From: Tilletiopsis washingtonensis
Lineage: Eukaryota; Basidiomycota; Exobasidiomycetes; Entylomatales
NCBI RefSeq assembly: GCF_003144115.1
Contig: NW_020312003.1
Location: 408,153 to 472,152 of the forward strand
Direction: 5' to 3'
Length of the DNA stretch: 64,000 bases
A model generated the notes under the pieces. The model worked only from the letters and a program-made list of their open reading frames with translations, had not been told where the DNA came from and did no database searches. Shown piece by piece: positions 8,413 to 54,920 of this stretch. Numbering within the stretch: the stretch's first letter is position 1; every line of letters starts with the position of its first letter. A program made the translations under genes and the position numbers.

Positions 8413-11400
8413 ATGGCCGACTCTCGAGCGCCAGAGCCGGGCACACCCTCGCCCGGCGACTCACGCAGCGGAGGCGGAGGGCAATCGGCAGCCAGAGGGC
8501 CGCCACCGAATGGTGAGTGAGAGCTGCTGCTGGTGGGCGGAGCGGGTGCTGCGTCGTTCACTGCACGGGCGTGGTCCGTCGGGCGTGTTCCGTCGTCAGG
8601 CCGGAAGTAGGGCTCCTCATTTCCAGCGCGCTGTGCCTCGCACAGTGCAGCTGCGATGCAGCCCGCGAGCTCTCTGAGGCGCCATCATTCTGACGCACTC
8701 CGTAGGCTATGCGCCAGTGGAACAGCACGCTGCATACCCATCCGGGCCTGCAACCTACGGCTGGGGCAGCGATCGTGGTCCGCCGGCCCAAACGCAGCGC
8801 GCGTGGCAGCAGCAGCAGCAGCACCAAGCGCCGTCATCACAACCAGCGCCGCCGGGAGCCAACCCGCCGCACACGTATGCTGGGCAGCCGTATCATCTCG
8901 TCGAGGTGCGCAGCGTGCCGTACTCCGCGCCGGGCGTGCCACTGGCTGCACCAAGCGTGCCGTACTATGCGCCGTATCCCGACAGCTCGGTTCCAACGAC
9001 GTCTGCGCGCGGTCAGCAACGCATGGACCAGGAGCGCATGATGATGCAACAGCAGCAGCAGCAACAGCCGCAGCCGCACCCTCAGTCGCAGCAGTATCCG
9101 CCGCAGCAGCTCCCGCGCGAGCAGCAGCAGCAGCAGGCGCAGCCTCGCATGACGCATCAGCAGCAGCCGCATCCAAACCAGATCTACCGGTCGCAATCGC
9201 AGCACTCGCATCCGGGCGCACCGCCGTCGCGGCAGGCGTCGTACGATGCTGCCGGTGCCTATCCCGTCACCTACTTTCCCTACGGCAGCCCGGGCGTGGC
9301 CGTCGAGACGCAGCCGTCGACGCCGCGCTCGAGTCAGGGGAGCATCAGCAACGTGCACTCGCCGGCCTCGTCCATGGGCGGCTCGTCGGCGCCGACCGAA
9401 TGGTCGGGCTACTATCCAGCGTATTCCGCTGCGCCGGTGAGCAATCTGCATCTCAACAAGGCCACCCTCGCGGCTGAGCGACGTTCCTTCTCGCAGCATG
9501 GCTACGCGCCTTACTTTCCTCCATCATCACCGGCGCCGACGTACGCCATAGTCGCGCCGCCGCACATGCAGCAGCAGCCATACGCCCAGCACGGGCAAGC
9601 ACCACAGGCATACGCTGCAGCAGGCGCGCCGGCCACTCACGCCTGGGCGCCGGCGTACTACGTGGCGCAGCCCGGGCCGCCACCGCCAGCCGGAGCGCTG
9701 ATGCAGGCGGCGCCAAGTGGGCAGCAGATGCCGGCGCGCGGCGGTTTCAGCGGCCCAGGCCGGGGCGCGCCAGCGCCTCGCGGACACCAGCAGTACGGGC
9801 CGCACATGCCGACGGCACGTCCTGCTCCGGCAATCCCGGGCGGCGTCAGTGGGATGGCACAGCGCCCGCGGCCTGATCTGGGCCGCTCGCAACCCAGCGC
9901 GAGTCGCTCAAGGACCGCCAGCAGCGGAGGCAACAGCGCCACTGGCGCACCCGCGCCGCTCAACAATCCGCTTCCGCCACGCCCTCCAGCCGCTCCGCAG
10001 GGCGAAGGCTCAGCCACGACGCAGCAGACCGTGCCATCAGGCTCTGTCGCCGCGGTGCCGGGCTCGCCGCATTCGTCGCAGAGCCATCCGCGCGGCGTCT
10101 ACCGTCCGCTGTACCACCCGCAGCAGGGCCCTCGCTCAGAGCACGTCCTCTGGGTCGGTAACGTCCCCAGTGACGCCACCGTCGAGGAGTTGTGGAACGT
10201 CTTCGCGCAGCTGCCGCCGGACGACGCCGAGCCCGAGCACGCAAAAGCAGGGGCGGCTGCCGAGGAGGGCCCTGACGATGCTGGTGGCGACACCGGCAGC
10301 GTCAGTGCGCGAACAGACGACGAGAGCGACCACGGCGTGCTCTCCATCTTCGTCATTTCACGCTCCAACTGCGCCTTTGTGAACTACGCCTCGCCGCGCC
10401 ATCTCGAGCGCGCGGTCAAGTTCTTCCATGACAAGCCGGTGCGGCCGGAGGACACGCGCTGTCCGAAGATGGTGTGCCGCGTGCGCAAGAAGGAGGACGA
10501 GTCGCAGGCTGGCGTGCAGGGACAGCGCGGACGCGGCATCCACGTTGCCTTGGTCAAGGAGCACGAGCGCAAGCGGCGCGAGGCGGCCAGGGCGCAGAAG
10601 GCCGACAGCGGTGGCTCCAGCGGTTCCGCGGGGCATGCCACGCGGCAGCCCAGCGACGCTCGCTCGAAGGGCAGCGTCAGCTCGCAGTCTCCCAGGCGCT
10701 CCGGATCGGATGAGACGGCTCGAGCATCTCCTTCCACTCCGTCCGTTGAGCCTGCCGCACCGAAGCCCGTCGCAAGCCCGGCCAGCATGCTCTCTCTTAG
10801 CCTGAGCCCCACTGCCACGACCGGCAGCAGCGGCGATCGTCCACCGCTGGCCCACGACAGCTCTGGCTCCATCTCGATTGCCTCGACGAGCTCCTCGCTG
10901 CTTCGACACCCAGTCTTCCGCGAGCGCTTCTTCATCCTTAAGAGTCTGCGCGCCGAGGACCTGGATCGGTCCGTGCAGACCGGCCTATGGGCTACGCAGC
11001 CGCATAACGAGGCAGTGCTCGATCAGGCGTACCGCAACAGCGAGACGGTGTTCCTGGTCTTCAGTGCCAACCAGAGCGGCTGCTTCTACGGCTACGCGCG
11101 CATGACAAGCCTCATCCGCACGCAGACGACGCCCAGCAGCAGCACACAGGCGAAGCGCGACAGCAACGGCAGCAATGGCAGCAACGGCACGCCAAAGTCG
11201 CCGAAGAGCATCGTGCAGAGTCCCTCTCCTGCCCAGTCGCCGTCGTCGCCGGCGGGGTACTCGTCGCAGAAACGGCCAAGCGTCACCGTCACGAAGCCGT
11301 CGACCATCGACGAGGGCGACGAGAGCAGCTCTACGTCCACGCGCAGCACATCACGCTCGCTGACGCCGGAGCAGGCGCTCGAGCACCTGGCCAAGCACGG

Positions 11401-12472
11401 CGCCACGACCTCGTACATGCTCTCGCCCGCCGAGCGAGACCGCGATCCGATGGCTTCGCCGCAGCCGATGACGCCGCTGGACGAGGACAGGCAGTTCCCA
11501 AGCGCGACCACCTCGCCCGACGACCGCGAGGTCTTCGCAGCTACGTGGCCGCCGTCGGAGCGCCAGTGCCAGGAGGCTGACCAGGAGCAGCAGCACCGCA
11601 ACACGCTCTCGCCGCGTCTGCTGCGGGCTGCCACCGCCGCGGAGATGGGCGCTCCGCCCGGCACCCCTACGCGTAGCAACAGCAGCCTTTCTTCGCGCTC
11701 GAGCCTGGCGCCCATCGTCAGCGGCGCCAGTGAGATCAGCGACCAGGAGCTTGCTTCTGCACGGCCGCCTTCGCCAAGCAGTTCGCCCCGGCGACCGTCT
11801 GTCGCGCACGCGGATGCCGATGGCATCAAGCGGCTTGACATGGCGCACCCTGTCGGTACGCCGACTGGCGTCGTCATGTCCGCGTCGCTCGGGCCCAACG
11901 ACTCTGTCTCGGTCTCTCATGCTCAGCGTGCCGACCAGATCTCCCTCCGCGCCGTCATACACAACCTGCGCCTGGAGGAGCGCGAGTCGCAGCGCAAGGC
12001 TGCCGAGCTCGAGGCTCATCTCAACGGCCTTTCAGTCGTCTCCGGCGACGGCTCGTCTGGCGTATACGAGCCTTCGCGCAAGCCGAGCTCCGAGCCGCGC
12101 ACGCAGGGCTCTGGCGAGACGGACAACACCACGGCGTCTGTCGACACGCCGCGCGCTGCCTCCTCTGACTCGTGGGGCCAGCCGTTCCGGATCGAGTGGC
12201 TCGAAACACGCCCGCTGCCGTTCCAGAACGTGCGCCGCCTGCGCAATCCCTGGCGCGACAATCGCCAGGTCAAGGTGTCTCGCGACGGCACCGAGCTGGA
12301 GCCAAGTGTCGGCCGCCAGCTGCTCGAGGAGTGGAGCAAAATCGGCACGGACGAGGCCAACGCGGCGGCCCGCGCGCCGCGCCAGAACTCAGACGACACC
12401 GACGATGGCGAGGAGGATGCGCCGCCGCCTCGTCGACGAGGCTCCAGGCAATCTGGTGGCGCCCGCTCCTGA
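8413..12472 (+). CDS. RRM + YTH-domain m6A-reader-like RNA-binding protein
   Basis: Two exons, 8413-8512 and 8706-12472, joined across a 193-bp intron (GTGAGT...TAG, phase 1); 1288 residues. The first exon begins with an ATG and encodes a Gly/Pro/Ser-rich start that runs straight into the second exon. Residues about 35-480 are Gln/Pro/Ala-rich with poly-Gln runs. An RRM lies near 510-630, with RNP2-like LWVGNV and RNP1-like NCAFVNYA. The YTH domain starts near 768 (RERFFILKSL, then GLWATQPHNE with the first cage Trp, and CFYGYARM). It breaks off near 836 and resumes near 1187 (DSWGQPFRIEWLE, LRNPWRDNRQVKVSRDG). The intervening about 350 residues are low complexity with one coiled-coil-like helix. 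The second half resembles YTHDC1. Binding of N6-methyladenosine RNA is inferred from the family. Confidence 0.88.
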
Positions 12473-12988: not shown

Positions 12989-15151
12989 TTAGGCGAAGCC
13001 AGCTGCGTCCACCGTCGGACTGCCGACGAGGCCCACGTCGGCCTCGCGCATCTTGGCCTCGGCACGCTCATAAGCCGTGCGGCCCTCCGCATCCAGCTGC
13101 GTGGCGTCCGGCACGGCGGGCGGCGTGCCTGCAGCGCCGGCCGAGAGGGGCGAGGGCTCGCCTCGTTGCGCGCTGGTCTGCTCAATCTTGAGCGAGGAGA
13201 GCGACGGCTTGCTGCTCACGAGTGGCGCAATGGGCTTGGGCGCCTTGCGCACGCTTGGGATGCGCCCGAGGATGCCGGCGTCGGTCGTCGTGGGCGTGGC
13301 GGCGGTGCTGCTCGGCTCGGAGCCCGGCGCAGGCGGCGGCGCAGGCCAGCCCCAGACGTCGGCGATGAAGCGGGCAATGTCGGGCTGCGGCTGCCGCGTC
13401 TCGCTCTTCTTGATGAAGGGATGGCTGAGCATCTTAGTCGGGCCCGGCCGCTTGGCCGGGTCCTTCTCGAGACAGCGCTCGACGAAGTCGCGCAGCGCCC
13501 GCCCCCACTTGACGCCGGCCTGCGGGTCGTCCTGCAGCTCGGGCACCGGCATGGAGACGACGTATGAGAGCAGGTCGATCGGACCCAAGGGCGGGTCGCC
13601 CTCGGGCGGGAAGGGGAAGCGATTGGATGCGACCTCGAGGATTGTCAGGCCGAGAGACCATACGTCGGAGCTGATGTTGTATGGCAGCCCGCGGATACGC
13701 TCCGGCTGCGCGAGAGGGGACATGGTCAGCGCAGACCGTGGACGCTCCGAAAGCGCAGACGCACTGCCATGTAGTAGCTTGTACCTGTGAAGGTGCCCGC
13801 CATCGAATTGATCAGCTCGCCCGAGACGCCAAAGTCGCACAGCTTGATCTGCCCTGAGCGCGTCACGACGATGTTCGACGGCTTGATGTCTGAGGCGCTC
13901 GTCTGATCAGCGCACGGACGGCTCACGCAGCACAGCAGCACTCACCGCGATGGATGATCTTGCGCTGCCTGAGGTACTCCAGGCCCTTGAGCCCGGCCTC
14001 TGCGACCTTGCCAAGCACCTTCTCGCCCGTGCGCCCGTTGCGCTTCTTGACCATCTTGTAGATGCCGTCGAGACTACCGCCCTCGCAGTGCTCCATGCAG
14101 ATGACGATGCTCGTGTCCTCGTCGGCGAGAAAGGCGCCGTAGTAGCGCACAATGTACTCGCTGTGGCACGTGCGGTTGAAGGCCAGCTCGCGCAGGATCT
14201 GCCGGTGTATTGCCGGATTGGGCGACGTCGAGATGGTCTGTTCACCCAGGTCAGCGACCAACGCAAGCAAACGCCCGCCAGGACAAGCACTCATATGCGC
14301 TCGGGCCACGAGCACGCACCTTGACGGCCATGACGATGCCTGTCGGCGTATGCCGCGCCTTCTTGACCTCGCCGCTCGCGCCCTCGCCGATGCGCCCCAG
14401 ATCCTCCAGGTGGCCCTTGAGCCTCCACTCCTCGGACTCGTCGCCGTCGCGCGCGCCGCTGCTGCTGGCGTTGCTCGCCTCGCTCGTGGCGCTCAGACTG
14501 CGGCGGTGCATGCCGGCGCCCGCCGCGCTGGAGCCGACGACCGGCAGCCGGAGCGCCGCATTGGACGGTCCAGCCTGCGCGTCTCCATTGCTGCTGCCTG
14601 CATGCGACGTCTCGGACGCAGAGCCGGCACCGTCGACGGAAAGCCCGCCAATGGCGCGAATGAGATCGTTCGTCAGCGCGGCAGGATGCCGCCCCTCGCC
14701 GTGCGGCACCGTGTCGGGGTAGATGGTCTGTAGTGCGGCCGTGGCATGGCCCTCTTCCACATCGAAGCCGACGCTGGGCGGCGCGAGGCCTGGCGTAGGC
14801 AGCGAAGAGTCGTCGTCGCCCGAGAGGCTGAGCGAGAGGTTGGTCGAGAGGCCCGAGAGGCCGTTGCTCGTCGGCATGGCCAGCGATAGGCCGCCGGCGC
14901 CGCGAGCTGACGAGGGGCCTGCGTGCAGAGAACTCAGCAACTCATAGACGCAGCAACAGCAGCACACTGCCATGCGCACGAGAGGAGGGCAGCGCCAGCT
15001 TGGGCATGCCGGCCCGCCGCGGCGGCCGCGGCGGGATGATGGAGAGCGACGGCGCCGGCGAGCCCGCTGCTGCGGCGGCCGGGCTTGCGGCTGCGGAGCC
15101 GCTCGGCACCGCCAGGTGGGGCGCCAGCGGCGCATTGGCGCGCTGGTCCAT
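12989..15151 (-). CDS. MAP kinase kinase, Mkk1/Mkk2 (cell wall integrity) type
   Basis: Five minus-strand exons: 15151-14980, 14918-14320, 14237-13946, 13889-13765 and 13705-12989; 634 residues. The start ATG sits in an excellent context (GCCGCCATGG). The kinase domain starts near residue 225 with GEGASGEV and AVK, then has HRDIKPSN and DFGVSGEL, the latter two assembled across introns. The activation loop reads [18 protein letters not shown], a dual-site MAPKK loop closer to Mkk1/Mkk2 than to the Ste7/Fuz7 or Pbs2 versions. C-terminal kinase blocks ([27 protein letters not shown]) are intact. The N-terminal [15 protein letters not shown] resembles a MAPK docking D-motif. The expected role is phosphorylation of the Slt2/Mpk1-type MAPK in the Pkc1 pathway; the pathway is inferred from loop similarity only. 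About 140 residues after the kinase domain are low complexity. Confidence 0.85.
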
Positions 15152-15922: not shown

Positions 15923-18548
15923 ATGCTCGAGGCCTTCTTCGACGGCCATCTGCCGCACGGCGCAGGCGCATCTGACTTCAAAGCATCTCACGCGCCCGAG
16001 GCAGACGATGAAGAGTGGGACACGAGCAGCGAGGAGCATAGCGAGCCGCCGTACGACCAGGTCTACAGGGCCATGCGAGGTCGTCACCTCAAACGCTTTG
16101 TCAACATCTCACTGCGCGAGAAACAAGGAAGCGCCTCGAAGCAGAGCGCGGAGGCTGTGTGCCGAGAGCTTGCCTCGCAGCTCATCGGCAAGACGACGTA
16201 CGACCCGTTCCGGGACATGGCATGCAACCGCTCGCCAGGAGAGACACTGGAGGACGGCTTCATTCGGCTCGCCAACGATGCATGCTCTTTGCTCGGCAGC
16301 TCGCTGCGGTTCGAGAAGTCCAGCCACCGGACCATCGCAAGCTCGAACTCAGTGAGATCACAGATGCGCCGGAACTGCCTTTCTAGACGCTGATAGGCAT
16401 CGTTCTTTTGAGAGCGGCGATGAGGACGAGGAAGTCACGTATAGTCCAGCAGACGTCACACTCCGGCGAAGCATGTCGTCTGCTGCCAGCCCACACTTTG
16501 CCGACGTCCTGTTCGTGGGCGTGGTCAAGCCGACAGAAGAGCAGGACAAAGACGAGCGACTCATGAGTCAGCTCGCTTGGTACATGTGGATCCTGCGTCG
16601 CGAACAGTGCGCCGTAGCGGTGTGCCACGGCTTCACACTCTGCGGACACGTACTGCGTCTCTGGCGCTTCGACGCTCACACGTACTCGTGCGCGCTGGCC
16701 ATCGACCTGGGCCGCGCCGATCACATGCCCACTTTCGTCAAGTTCATCACCTTCGTCACCAATCCGAGCGAGGTGCTCGTTCGATGGACACCGCCGCCAG
16801 CAGGGACGCCCTTTCGCATCGCTCGGACGCAAGACGCCGAGGCGCAGTCGTCCTCCTCAGCCGCGACAGTCGAAGACTGGGGTTTCGTCGACGAGCCTCA
16901 GCTGCTCATCGTGCGCAATGAGCTCTTCGGCGGCCGGACAGCCTGTTGGGCGGGGAAGGCAAAGAGGCTCAGGCCTGCCATCCGTGCCGAGTCAGGCAGT
17001 CCGACCGGCGAGGCGCCCGACTCGGACGCGCCCCAGTACGTCGTCATCAAGACGACCTGGGTCGCGTCCTACCTTGTCGGTCACGAAGCAAAGGTTCTAC
17101 GTCATCTCGCTCATCACAACGTCAAGAACGTGCCGGTACTGCTCAGCACCGTGCTCCTGCCCGAGCTCGCTCGCGTCCACACGAGTTCCAACGCGCTCGT
17201 CCGCGAGCCTGAGATGATGGGCGAGGCCAGCGGCCAGATTCCCGAATGGTCCTGGCACGGCATTGCGCTCGACGTCGTCGTGATGACCTCCCCTGTTGCG
17301 AAGAAGGTCGAGACGTCCGAGATGTCAGCAAGAGACATGCTTCTCTTCTTCAGCCGCGCTGCGGAGATCTTGCGCGATGTGGCTCTCGCCAACGTACACT
17401 ACCGCGACATCAACAGCGGCAATCTGCTGCTCGTGGCAGATAGTAGCGGCGACGACCCACAGCCGTTGCTGATCGACTTCGGCAACGCCCGCATCGGCGA
17501 TGATCCTCGCGGCGACCTCGAAGACGCGGCAAACGACGCGCGCCGCTTGCGCCTGGCCGCCGACGACGCTCGCAGTGCCAATCAACACTTCATGTCGCTG
17601 CGCTCAACAAGCAGTGCGACTATCCTCAAGATCCTCGCCGACGAGGAGCAGGAACTGGTTCGCGAGCGAAAACGGCACGCGGAGGTCAAGACGGAAGAAG
17701 AACGCCGCGAGCTCGCCATGGGGATTGAGGAGCACTGCGCAGAGATCCAGCGGCAGCGGGACGATCTCAACGTCGAATCGATGCAGCATCGCGCAATCGA
17801 CGATCTCGAGTCGCTGTTCTACCTATTTCTGCATCACAGCGCACTGCGAGCCGGCAGGCAAGAGCTGTCGGAGAAGCTGAAGGATCCGAAGTACAAGGAG
17901 ACGCTTCTAGGCGATGGCGCGCCGCGAATGGTGAGTTTCTGATGCTGCGCGACACCGGGCTGCCAGCGTGTGCTGACCAGGTGTATCGCTCAGGGACTAC
18001 GCACGGGAACTCTCATCGCTCTCGAGGGCCCATGGAAGGCCTTGTTCAGTGACGCGTCTCTTAGGCCCATCTTTGGCAAAGACGTCGCGACGACGACGGC
18101 GTCCTCTCTTTCCCGCCCCCTTCCGCCCGTTGGTGGCATCCTCTCAGCGCCCGAGTCGCATGCATACGAGAACTGGATCAACGCGCTGGCTCAGGCTTCT
18201 GCCGACTGCACCGTGATCGCTCGCGACCGGGCGGCACAAGACGAGGCTAGCAGCAGTCGCGGTGCGCCGCTCACCTCGCCGTTCTGCAAGTCCGAGGGCT
18301 CGCGGCCCACGCGCGGCGCAGGAACGAAGAGTAAGAGTGCTCCTGCCGTGCCTGCAAAGCGGAAGCGGGCAGACAAGGAGAACCCGACTGTCGCGCCTCG
18401 CGACGGCTCGCGCTCCGGCCTTCGCTCCAGCCCGCGTCTCGCTCTTCTCTCCAGCGCGCATCGCCGCACACCCTCGAACGAGTCATCCAGCTCCGAGCGG
18501 AGCGAGCCTGCCAGTCCGTCTCGCGCTCCGCGCAGGCGCATTGAGTAG
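15923..18548 (+). CDS. FunK1-like fungal protein kinase
   Basis: Three exons: 15923-16351, 16413-17930 and 17994-18548; 833 residues. The first ATG in the opening frame is at 15923. The region encoded near 16500-16750 (DVLFVGVVKP, LAWYMW, CHGFTLCGHVLRLWRFD) matches the N-terminal lobe of the fungal FunK1 family. The catalytic loop reads HYRDINSGNLLL and the metal site LLIDFGNARI, both typical of FunK1 rather than classical kinases. A charged coiled-coil segment lies between the DFG-like site and the last exon, and the Arg/Ser-rich tail has NLS-like KRKR. The second junction (17930/17994) is clear. The first junction is weaker: only GTGAGA at 16352 with a TTTTGAG acceptor at 16412 keeps phase, and the frame just before that acceptor also encodes a plausible peptide. 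A sequence error or decay at that spot is possible. Substrate unknown. Confidence 0.72.
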
Positions 18549-49609: not shown

Positions 49610-52600
49610 CTACATGATGCTGCAGTCCTGCTTGCTGCTGGCGCGGCGAGCGCGCTTGCGCTCCGCCGCCGAGGCAGACTTGTCGACAGTGGCCGTCGTC
49701 GGCGTGATGGCGCCGTCGACCTTGTTCTTGCTGCCGACCGACGCGAGGCGCGCGTCGCTGTGGAAGGACGTGAGGCGCTGGCGGAACGAGCGCTCGCTGT
49801 CGCGCCCGCCCTCGTTCGACGCCAGACGGTTGAGGTGCGGCGTGCTGATGGCCGCCGAGTGCGTCGCGCGGTGGCCCCGCGACGGGAAGCGCGGCGGCGG
49901 CGCAGCGGGCCGCGTCGACTGCGAAGAGCTGTGCCGGTGAGCGGCGGGGCGCGCGATGGCCTGCTTGCTGTTGTTGAGCGTGCTGGGGTTCGTCGAGCCC
50001 GTCGAGTTCGTGTGCGCCATGGCGTGCGACGCGCTCGAGACGGTGCTTGAGCCGCTGACGCTGCCGAAGCTGACCGAGCCAGGCCGCTCGCGCCGCTGCG
50101 AGCCGCCCTGCGAGCTGCTGAACGAGCGGGCAATGGAGCCGTTGCCCGCCTGAGTCTCCAGCTCGACCGCCGGCGAGGGCGAGCGCACGCGGCCCAAGCC
50201 CATGCCGGGCAGCAGCGAGATGCGGCGTCGCCGGTGCTCTCCGGTCGTCGGCGAGACGGGCGTCTCGGTGCTCGTCGGCGAGATGGGCGTGGTGGCCATC
50301 TCTCCAATGCTGCCCTTGCTGCTTCGCTTCCACTTGTTGAAGTTGGGGATGCGGAACGTGGGGCCGAGCGCCGGCGACTGTGTGCCGGGTCCAGGCGACG
50401 GCGACGGAGCGGGCGACGAGGCGCCGAGGCCTCCGAAGCTGGGCAGGCGTGCCAGGTCCACCGAGCTGCGCTGGCCAGCGAACATGAGGAGCTGCGCGCG
50501 GAGGTTGCACGGCGCATGGGCACGACGAGCGCAGCTTGCGTGGCAGATCAGGCCGCACTCCTCGCACAGCACGGCGTGCTTCTTGACTGGCTCGCGGCAG
50601 ATCTTGCACTGCACCGCCTTGCTGAACGTGCTCTTGACGAAGGCGTGCGCCTTTGGCTCCTCCTGGCCGTCGACAGCGGCGTTCAGGTCCAGGAGCGACG
50701 GGTCGAAGCCAGCAGCGTGCAGGCCGCGCTCGATGCTGTTGCTCGCGACCATGCTCGGCGAGCGCAGCATGTCGACGGAGCCGTCGCTGCCGCGGCGCAC
50801 GGCGTCCTCGAGGTTGGCAACGATCGGGAACTCGGACAGCCCGCTGGGCTGACGCAGCTTGCCTGCCGCGCTGGGGTCGTCCTCGCGCACCCAGCCGTGC
50901 GGGTCAGAGGCAGCGCGCAGCGACGTCAGCTCCGGACGCGCATCGTGACGCGGCGGCGAAGAGGCCGAGCGTGCGAGCTCCGACGGGCGCGACGGCGAGG
51001 GGGCCGACGCCATGACCTCGTTCGTCTCGGCGACGGCGCCGATGGCCGCATGCAGGCTCTTCAGGTCGACCTTGCGGAAGTCGGCCGAGATGCGGCGCAG
51101 GAACGGCACGCTGTCCTGCGGGCGCAGCTCCTTGGCGCCGGTCCACGTCTGGCGCAGCCACTGGTGCTCGAAGAGCATCTCGGCGCTCGGGCGCATCGTC
51201 GGGTCCTTGTCGAAGCACAGCAGCAGGAAGTCGCGCAGCAGCGGCGAGATCTTCTCGGGCAGCGGCGGGCAGTCGTCCTCGACGATGCGCCACATGGCCG
51301 ACATGGCGAGCATGTCGCCGTACGGCGGCTTGCCCGTCAGCAGCTCGATGATCGTGCATCCGAGCGACCAGATGTCGGCCGACGTTGACGCGCCCTTGAG
51401 CTCGATGACCTCGGGTGCCACTGTGAGGCGTGTCAGTCAGGGCCGAGGCTGCAGCGAGGCCTTACTCACTCCAGTTCGGCGTGCCGATTGCATCGTTCTT
51501 GACGTTCTGGATCTTCTCAACGGCCTTGAGATTGAGCGAGACACCAAAGTCGGACAGCTTGACGTTGCCGTTCTTCGTCGTCAGGATGTTGGCCGCCTTG
51601 AGGTCGCAGTGCACGACCTTCATGTCGTGCAGATAGTTGAGGCCCTCGAGGATCTTGACGACGTAGCTCGCGACGAGCTTCTCGGGGAAGTTGCCAAACG
51701 CCTTGAGCGTGTGCAGCAGCGAGCCGTTCTCGACGTACTCGAGAATGATCGAGACGACGTCGGGGCCACGCACGAGGCCCTCGTACTTGACGACCGACGG
51801 ATGCGCGAGGCTCTTGAGCAGGTCGACCTCGTTCATCAGCTGCGTCACCTCGTCCTCGCTCTTGCCTTCGAGCTTGATGCGCTTGACGGCCATCATCTGG
51901 CCCGAGTTGAGGTTCAGGGCGCGGTACACCGAGCCGAACTGGCCGCGTCCGATGCAGTTGCCCATCTGGTACGTCACGTTCGGCTTGCCCTCCTCGACGA
52001 CGACCAGCTTGTGCTTGGCGCCCGGCGCGACGGACGGGTCGCGCGACAGGCGCACGCCGCCGCTGACCGCTGCGACTGAGCTGGTGCCATCGTCGCGGGT
52101 TGCGTCGCTGCACAGCGTGTTCGTGTACAGCGAGCCGACATCCGACTCGAGGCGAGAGCGGCCGCTGACGTGCGACGAGATCGCCGACATCGCTGGGGCA
52201 TCAGACACGTCCGAAGATGCGCCATGCGGGCTGCGAGGGATCTGCAGGTCCGAGGCGTAGCGCATGTGCCGGTAGTTGGGACGCGCAGCGGCTGACTTGG
52301 GCGAGGCGGGGACGAGGTTGACCGACGACGAGCTCGACACGTAGCCCGCCATGCCGGCGTTGAGCGATAGGTGGCGGCCGATGCGCTTCACTGTTGGCGA
52401 CTCGTGCGCGGAGGCTGCGCGCGGGAAGGGCACACGGGCCGGCGAAGAGGACATGCTGGGGAACGCAGCGACATTCTCACTCGAGCCGCCATCGCGATGC
52501 GGGTTGAGCGAGGATGGGCCCGCGTACGAGCGGGCGCTGTGGCGGCGCACCGGCGCCTGGCGTGCCGGGCTGGTGCCGCTGGGAAAGCGGTGCTCCTCGA

Positions 52601-54920
52601 AGTCGGACGACGTGCGCAGCGGGCGGCCTGGGCTGCCGCCGGCTCCGTGCTGCAGCTCTTGACTGATCCGCCGCTGCGAGCTGGCGCGCGCCATGGGCGA
52701 CGACGCGTGTCCGAGGCCGACGAGACGCGGGCTGGCGTTGCCCCTAGCAAGCTCATCGTCGTCCTCGTCGTCATCGTCATCGGAGGCACGCACGGCACGA
52801 GTGTTGAGGCGCGGCGGCGAGCGCAGTAGGTCCTCGAGGTCCTCCTCCGCCACGCCGGTCAGGCTGATGGCCGACTCGCTGAGCTTGCGGTCGCGGTACG
52901 GCATGCGCGTCTCCTCGTCGCTACCGCGCGAGACCGAGTCGGCGAACGTGATCGAGACACCCTTCGAGCGCATGAACTGCGGCTTGGCACCGACGTCGCT
53001 TGAGCGGCGGTGGCGCTCCTCCTTGGCGTACCTGTTGCCGGCGACGAGGATGCGCTCTGCCTCTTGCCGCTGCTGCTGGATGGAGAGCGCAACCGGGTGG
53101 CGCTGCCCGCCGGAAGGACGCTTCGCCGGCGAAGCGCGCGGCGAGAAGCCAGAGCCGCGCGGAAAGGGCACGTCCGAGGGGCTGTGCATGAGCTCAGAGC
53201 CTTCGTCCAGCGAGCCGTGAGGCGTCAGCGGCGGCGTCTGCGTGTTGAGGATGCGCGGCGCCGCTGATGAGCGCAGAGGCACGGGGATCGCGGCGGACGG
53301 GCGGGAGGCCGGCGAGCCGGTAAGGCCGCGTGCGCTGGCCGAACGCTCGAGCGCAAGCACGGTGTGGACTGCGCGCTGCAGGCCCTCGACGGTGGCGTCT
53401 GTCAGGTCGAGCGGATGGAAGAGATCCTTGGAGCGCACGCCGAGGTAGTCTCTGGCAGCACGGAGGAAGCGCGAGATGTTGTCGGCCTTGACCCAGTCGG
53501 CGTCGCGGCGGTCGATTGTCTCGATGCACTTTGGGTGCAGCTGGTTCGCCAAGAGGCACAGCAGCACGCCGTCAGAGAGGCTCGTCCAGAAGTCGAGCAG
53601 CTCGGTGGTCGCGTCGCCAGAGCTGCGGACATCGCTGTCCTGCTCGACGCGCGAGGCCAGACTGTCGATGCGATGCCGGTCGGCGCCCATCTCCTGCCGC
53701 GAGAGTTGCGAGAGCTGCGCGACGATGAAGGCGCGAGCTGCCCGCACGTTCGTGGTGCTCCGACTGCTCGACGCTGCATCAACTCCGACGGACGAGTCCG
53801 TCACCGCTGCCGTGGCCACGCTGTGCGTGAAGAGCGTCGTGCCGGTGCCGGCAGTTGCAGTGCTGACATCAGACTCTGTCTCGGCAGTCAGCATGCTGTT
53901 GTCGAAGCGCGAGGCTGGCAGCGGCGCCGGCGAGGGCAGCGGAGACGACGGCAGCGAGGGCGCGACGGCCGTGTTCGACGAGGATGACTGTGCGCTGAAG
54001 CGCCGTGGCCGCGTGAACCACGTTTTGATGTTGCGCAGCGATGCATCGCTGCCGGCCGAGCGGCGCTTGTCCTCTGTCGCGGCGGCAGCCAAGGGCAGCA
54101 GCGCAGGCGAGCGTGGAGTGCTCTGCGGCACGCTGCGCACCAGGACGGTGTCGCCCGTGTGCTCTGGCGCAGTGCGGTCGGACGACGGCGCGGGCGACTC
54201 GCGGCGCACCGTCACGTTGCTGCTCTTGCGCTCGCGCTGCGACGTGCGTCGGTGGAGCAGGTTGCTGCTGCTGTCCAGCACCGGGCCGACGACGGCTGCG
54301 AGGCTCGGCAGCGCCTGGCGGCCGTCCTGTGCGGGGCGCGACCACGCGCTGTGCTTGCTGCGCGGCTGGCGCCGGTCGTCCAGGTCGACCATCGGGTCGG
54401 AGGAGAGATGCAGCTCCGGTGTCGACAGCGACGCAAGCGCCAGGTTGCGGTGCGAGAGGCTCGAGGGCCCCGCTCGCGACTCGATGTGGTCGCGGTTCCG
54501 CCGATCGTGGCGCGGCGTCGGGCTGTCGAGCTCTGACGCCGACGGCCGCGGAGCGTCCAGGCTCGCACGAGACGTGAACACTGGCCGTCGCCCGGGTGCG
54601 TTTGCCTGCGACGCCGACTGCGACGGGGTGATCGAGGAGAACGACGTGCTCGTGCCGACGTCAGACGGCGCTGTTGCAGCGGACTCGACAGCGAGAGACG
54701 GCGCGGACGTGCGTGGCTTTGGCGTGGGCGACAGCGAAGAGTCGCGCGTTGGGGCTGCCCGTGGTGTGGCAGAGCCGGGGACAGAGATACGCGCCGGCCG
54801 TGGCGGTGGTGGCCCTCGACGCGGCGCCCGAGAGGCGTCGCCGAAGCGGCCCGGAGTGGAGTGATCGACGGCTGCGAAGTCCATCGACGGCGAGTGCATG
54901 ATGGCGGTGACAGCAGCCAT
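49610..54920 (-). CDS. CH-kinase-C1 protein of the Cdc7/Cdc15 (septation) type with CaaX end
   Basis: Two minus-strand exons, 54920-51470 and 51420-49610; 1753 residues. The order is: a Ser-rich disordered N-terminus; a calponin-homology-like domain at about 392-525 ([44 protein letters not shown]); more disorder; a STE-type kinase at about 985-1243; a C1 zinc finger at about 1408-1460 (H, CKIC, CEEC, HASC, C); a Ser-rich tail; and the C-terminal tetrapeptide CSIM. Kinase blocks are [51 protein letters not shown] and, across the intron, [15 protein letters not shown]. They match fission yeast Cdc7, Aspergillus SepH and budding yeast Cdc15. The HRD arginine is replaced by Cys. Expected role: GTPase-dependent septation/mitotic-exit kinase at the spindle pole. 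The CaaX box predicts farnesylation, and C1 predicts lipid contact. Confidence 0.85.

Follow-up and report, generated by a model that had tools for sequence, protein, structure and literature searches.

The kinases Cdc7 of S. pombe, SepH of A. nidulans and Cdc15 of S. cerevisiae are among the described systems closest to the gene reported here, which occupies positions 54920-49610 on the minus strand of a 64,000-nucleotide stretch of the Tilletiopsis washingtonensis genome (contig NW_020312003.1, positions 408,153 to 472,152; hereafter the window). For S. pombe Cdc7 and for OpHcd2, the corresponding protein of Ogataea, the accessible part of PMC9105162 describes a kinase domain near the N-terminus and a C-terminal armadillo-type fold, and SepH is listed as STE/STE11/CDC15 in the available portion of the A. 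nidulans kinome (PMC3591445). Rhizopus oryzae possesses Cdc7 homologues that lack the characteristic C-terminal tail, as the window protein does, although the accessible part of that account (PMC2699053) mentions neither calponin-homology (CH) nor C1 domains and the likeness is one of descriptions only. A second Cdc7-type kinase without the tail thus has a precedent, at least as these tail-less homologues are described in PMC2699053.

The window gene is placed in the Cdc7/SepH/Cdc15 group through the identity of its kinase domain (54.7% over 256 residues, 314 bits) to that of a second gene of the same genome, on the contig we call C22. It differs from the named kinases in having a central rather than an N-terminal kinase domain, in giving no armadillo match, in the addition of a CH and a C1 domain, and in an HCD motif where the C22 kinase has HRD. 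Parts of this build are shared with two further systems. The Vav family (CH-Ac-DH-PH-C1-SH3-SH2-SH3) likewise carries an N-terminal calponin-type CH domain and a more C-terminal C1 domain on either side of a catalytic core, but that core is a RhoGEF and not a kinase, so the resemblance is an analogy and not whole-protein homology. Raf and KSR kinases likewise pair their kinase domain with a C1 domain whose loop is short. In these proteins the C1 domain precedes the kinase and there is no CH domain, whereas in the window protein it follows the kinase, which itself belongs to another group.

The window gene very probably encodes, to judge from its sequence, a Cdc7/SepH-family (STE11/CDC15-type) paralogue of the septation kinase that carries CH and C1 domains. 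The three domains are joined in one predicted protein of 1753 residues, encoded by two exons that are separated by a single 49-nt GT-AG intron. The features of the gene are as follows.

51470..54920, minus strand: exon 1, which ends one base into codon 1151 and encodes residues 1-1150 (N-terminus of low order, CH domain, linker, and kinase N-lobe as far as GTPNW)
53337..53747, minus strand: calponin-homology region, residues 392-528, with the Pfam core at about residues 441-511 (53388-53600)
51155..51971, minus strand: protein kinase domain, residues 984-1239, broken by the intron
51603-51611, minus strand: HCD in place of HRD in the catalytic loop (residue 1104), Arg being replaced by Cys; the C22 kinase has HRD
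51421..51469, minus strand: intron of 49 nt, GTGAGT...CACAG, within the codons of the kinase W-MAPE run
49610..51420, minus strand: exon 2, encoding the C-lobe of the kinase, a linker, the C1 domain and a tail of low order, with the stop
50504..50647, minus strand: C1 zinc finger, residues 1409-1456, H-X12-C-X2-C-X10-C-X2-C-X4-H-X2-C-X7-C, with 8 of 8 zinc ligands
49613..50503, minus strand: C-terminal tail, residues 1457-1753, with few hydrophobic residues and no Pfam domain or armadillo match reported

An earlier note on this DNA, made from the letters and their open reading frames, had claimed that CH, kinase and C1 domains are fused in that order in one gene, and both the Pfam matches and the two-exon model agree with it; its residue ranges for the two end domains (392-525 and 1408-1460) were correct to within a few residues. 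The CH domain and most of the kinase lie on one uninterrupted exon, and the kinase C-lobe and the C1 domain lie on the other, so that neither the CH-kinase nor the kinase-C1 linkage requires any further splice. The intron splits the W-MAPE motif, and splicing restores TPNWMAPEV. The gene starts at 54920, the first ATG of a frame that is open from 55187. Its third-position GC content (GC3) amounts to 0.75 over codons 1-150 and to 0.83-0.95 further on, while that of the 600 bases flanking it on either side, in the same phase, is 0.61-0.66. Because the GC3 of the gene exceeds that of its flanks, the CH domain is placed within coding sequence; the far N-terminus, comprising about the first 150 codons, is the least certain part of the gene model.

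The PF00069 profile (Pkinase) recognises the kinase domain and is covered across both exons, the exon-1 protein scoring 149.7 bits and that of exon 2 scoring 60.4. All of the motifs of an active kinase are found, namely the glycine-rich loop (991), the VAIK lysine (1013), the catalytic aspartate within HCD (1104), DFG (1124) and the APE motif within GTPNWMAPE (1146). The enzyme therefore looks active but of the non-RD type, and the replacement of the HRD arginine by cysteine suggests that it may be controlled less by phosphorylation of the activation loop and more by its end domains. Among solved structures its nearest match is MAP3K2 (E 1.8e-58), followed by MST4.

The CH region gave a significant match to PF00307 that exceeds the curated cut-off of 26 bits, both when excised (43.2 bits, E 5.1e-11) and within the whole exon-1 protein (38.4 bits), as the earlier reading of this region as CH-like had implied. 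The match covers profile positions 23-91 of 109, and since it begins only at position 23 the first CH helix is not covered and has either diverged or been separated by inserted sequence. For the related CDC24-calponin family (PF06395), whose cut-off is 21.3 bits, the excised region scored above it at 23.1 and the exon protein below it at 18.3. Calponin (1h67) is the nearest solved structure (E 4.3e-10), followed by Vav-3 (E 1.3e-5) and transgelins, with Vav1 also matched at E about 0.002. An origin of the match in low-complexity sequence was rejected, the region aligning with calponin along 70 residues. Single CH domains of the calponin type do not by themselves demonstrate actin binding. The region is thus taken, from these similarities, as a single domain of the calponin/Vav type, whose binding partner could be actin, another protein or the kinase of the same molecule.

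The C1 region likewise scored significantly above the curated cut-off of 26.5 bits for PF00130 (C1_1), with 34.6 bits when excised (E 1.7e-8) and 29.5 bits on the exon-2 protein; this was the sole family listed over its cut-off on the excised region and the best-scoring one, and a RING or PHD identity was rejected. The second and third cysteines of the domain enclose a loop of 10 residues. In the aligned structures the same loop has 10 residues in RASSF5, 9 in Raf-1, 12 in RacGAP1 and 13 in Unc-13A, and B-Raf and KSR are also among the solved structures matched. Three other C1 matches occur in the genome; the two above cut-off have a loop of 11 residues and the third is below cut-off. C1 domains that bind diacylglycerol typically have a loop of 13-14 residues. 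The window C1, at 10, falls short of the full-length ligand loop of a typical diacylglycerol- or phorbol-ester-binding domain, and because of this short loop a diacylglycerol route appears less probable than an interaction with a GTPase, a protein or acidic lipid. Control of the window C1 by diacylglycerol is accordingly rated less likely on its sequence, although similarity scores alone do not decide the matter.

The kinship of the window kinase was assessed within its own genome (18.7 Mb in 32 contigs). The kinase piece encoded by exon 1 gave 55 matches there, one of which is the window gene itself, and five other kinase places were compared at length: that on C22, two on C19, one on C6 and one on C23. 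Among the kinases of this genome that were aligned, C22 is the closest relative of the window kinase. A tree built from eight kinase domains, of which six belong to this genome and two are PDB entries (none of them a named Cdc7/SepH sequence), pairs the window and C22 kinases with a support of 0.955; the other six kinases in the alignment are 31.6-40.8% identical to the window kinase. Outside the kinase domain, blastp aligned the window and C22 proteins only in pieces at E 1.5 or worse. The C22 gene is placed as follows.

C22, about 135.3-140.1 kb (L030:766-5594), minus strand: kinase-plus-armadillo gene, with 12 GT-AG introns in the model and a product of 1386 residues

Its intron count thus contrasts with the single intron of the window gene. 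The C22 kinase is N-terminal (55-305) and is followed by a C-terminal armadillo-like region, which matched PF24768 at E 1e-12 (48.5 bits, below that family's cut-off of 79.9) and PF25598 at E 0.047; hydrophobic content across residues 801-1300 is 0.32-0.48. No armadillo match was found in the window protein at E <= 10, in either exon protein or in the part following the kinase, although the filters of HMMER drop most weak matches. Thus the C-terminal armadillo-type region expected of a Cdc7/SepH orthologue is unmatched in the window protein and matched in C22, and by build the genome holds, in C22, a better counterpart of Cdc7/SepH than the window gene. By build and kinship, the C22 gene has the strongest claim to be the true Cdc7/SepH of this fungus.

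The explanation that we prefer overall is that the window gene and the septation kinase are old paralogues and that the end domains of the window protein serve as docking and control modules, to which we assign a probability of about 0.6. Several points weigh against it. The comparison took in 5 of the 54 other kinase matches and left out C12:118519 (65 bits), one of the better ones, and the Cdc7/SepH family name, the age of the paralogue and its conservation all depend on the order of domains and on how closely the C22 kinase resembles that of the window (55% identical). A fold model of the CH region from its single sequence had a mean predicted local distance difference test score (pLDDT) of 50.6, and the 50 Foldseek matches listed for it include no CH domain; the 50 listed for the corresponding C1 model (pLDDT 65.2) are mostly ZZ, B-box and RING/U-box zinc folds, with none of the 50 described as C1 and none at E <= 0.001, so that both models are uninformative. 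The best solved relatives of the C1 region (RacGAP1, Raf-1, RASSF5 and Unc-13A) lie at E 0.004-0.009, each weak singly, and RasGRP1 (0.026) and PKC-delta (0.037) score close behind the atypical C1 domains; these two and Unc-13A (0.009) are diacylglycerol-binding types. Finally, CDC14 (PF08045), a component family of the septation initiation network, had no match in the genome, a result that does not show its absence.

As a whole, the mechanism that we propose for the window kinase is tentative and its correctness doubtful. The CH and C1 domains would act as docking and control modules at the two ends of the protein, and their docking sites would most likely be the cytoskeleton of the cortex and a complex of small GTPases bound to membrane or cortex. 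Docking there would concentrate and unlock the kinase, which could then phosphorylate kinases of the GCK/NDR type that serve morphogenesis or septation, acting in parallel with the canonical SepH arm. Mob-family genes are found on two contigs of the genome.

An alternative to which we would give even odds is that the window gene is a standard paralogue of its wider lineage, in which tail-less Cdc7 homologues predate the Dikarya and CH and C1 domains are ordinary additions kept in a larger fungal group and present in databases without comment. The available text of PMC2838846, which catalogued the Pfam domains of kinases in 30 fungi including five basidiomycetes, counts C1_1 as one of the ten accessory domains that occur most often in the kinases of fungi; neither 'calponin' nor 'CH domain' occurs in its main text. 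Against such an ordinary status, the literature on Cdc7 homologues makes no mention of CH or C1 in its accessible parts. No Cdc7/SepH kinase with either domain appeared in the titles or abstract openings of the open-licence PMC matches listed, which is not proof of absence. Thus a tail-less second Cdc7-type kinase is known in kind, and the version with CH and C1 was not found among the literature matches listed. The collections scanned for outside relatives consisted of prokaryotic or viral contigs and gave no fungal relative, as is to be expected of such collections. The build is unusual and the correction to the earlier interpretation is clear, yet this may quite possibly be a routine protein of its lineage that is already in databases.

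It is also conceivable, but unlikely, that the protein is a Vav-like clamp, in which CH and C1 fold onto each other or onto the kinase, keeping the enzyme switched off until a ligand or phosphorylation opens it, with targeting secondary. The matches of the CH domain to Vav-3 and Vav1 are in keeping with this. In Vav proteins, as described in the accessible part of PMC6562523, CH-Ac and the C-terminal SH3 touch the DH-PH-zinc-finger core, which includes a C1, and thereby hold the protein in a closed, autoinhibited state; the HCD loop, moreover, suggests control by something other than activation-loop phosphorylation. However, calponins outscore Vav as matches to the CH domain, and about 450 residues of low-order linker separate it from the kinase. 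A bolder version appears improbable: that in these fungi the Cdc7/SepH family split long ago into a kinase-armadillo branch at the spindle pole and a previously undescribed CH-kinase-C1 branch, the latter a Vav-like clamp on a non-RD kinase, opened by a GTPase or the cytoskeleton, that supplies division with a second input, this one cortical.

The interpretation put forward in the earlier note, that the window gene is itself the septation kinase of this fungus and gained CH and C1 domains that bring it to the division site by way of actin and lipids, seems quite improbable. The closeness of its kinase to the Cdc7-like C22 kinase and the presence of both added domains speak for it, but the C22 gene has the build published for Cdc7 (kinase plus armadillo-like region, in the accessible part of PMC9105162), and the C1 loop has the 10 residues of RASSF5 rather than the 13 of Unc-13A. 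While the domains, their order and their union in a single gene stood, the equation of the window gene with yeast Cdc7 and Cdc15 did not, C22 better fitting the build described for S. pombe Cdc7. Because C22 carries the conventional Cdc7 build, the remark that yeast Cdc7 lacks CH and C1 compares proteins that are not equivalent, and the proposed route to the division site rests on doubtful domain functions, the C1 loop being short and a single CH domain being no proof of actin binding. The window protein is best read as a paralogue that carries CH and C1. The least tenable alternative is an annotation artefact that merges CH and kinase from two adjoining transcripts; separate transcripts were rejected on a predicted exon of 3451 nt that is open throughout, with no stop from CH to kinase and coding-type GC3 across codons 151-1050.

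If the paralogue is conserved, models of fungal septation drawn from the yeasts would overlook another Cdc7-group kinase, one that has targeting and control domains of its own. It would also be a reason not to give the name SepH too readily to a Cdc7-like kinase of such a genome, since the gene that more probably encodes the septation kinase lies here on another contig.

In the scans beyond the genome, the exon-1 kinase piece had no confirmed relative in the prokaryote and viral contig collections, and neither a 60-residue kinase core nor the kinase C-lobe matched any viral contig. The same 60-residue core matched 18 loci in bacterial-labelled records (35-56% identical in the best segment), which were set aside as presumed bacterial kinases; one of them, L014, lies in a low-coverage rumen metagenome-assembled genome and could be eukaryotic carry-over. 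The sole viral-contig locus matching the CH region, L011, aligned with the 1753-residue protein in a piece of 66 columns at 36% (E 0.002) around DLTDATVE and another of 20 columns (E 0.89), and was rejected as a chance match that has no kinase match at E <= 1.

Elsewhere in the genome, a single strong CH match (92.8 bits; C1:1035778-1041995, L034) lies about 4 kb from C1 and kinase matches on the same strand, a region that presumably holds an alpha-actinin-type gene beside a PKC-like gene and not a fusion. Within the window itself, 16356-17939 on the plus strand matches the FunK1 type of fungal protein kinase (PF17667, E 1.4e-18), and a further protein kinase gene, matched in three pieces, lies at 13412-14210 on the minus strand. 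At 8678-12469 on the plus strand there is a large frame with a YTH domain (PF04146, E 2.6e-45) and a YTH1-type RRM (PF25701, E 3.1e-11).

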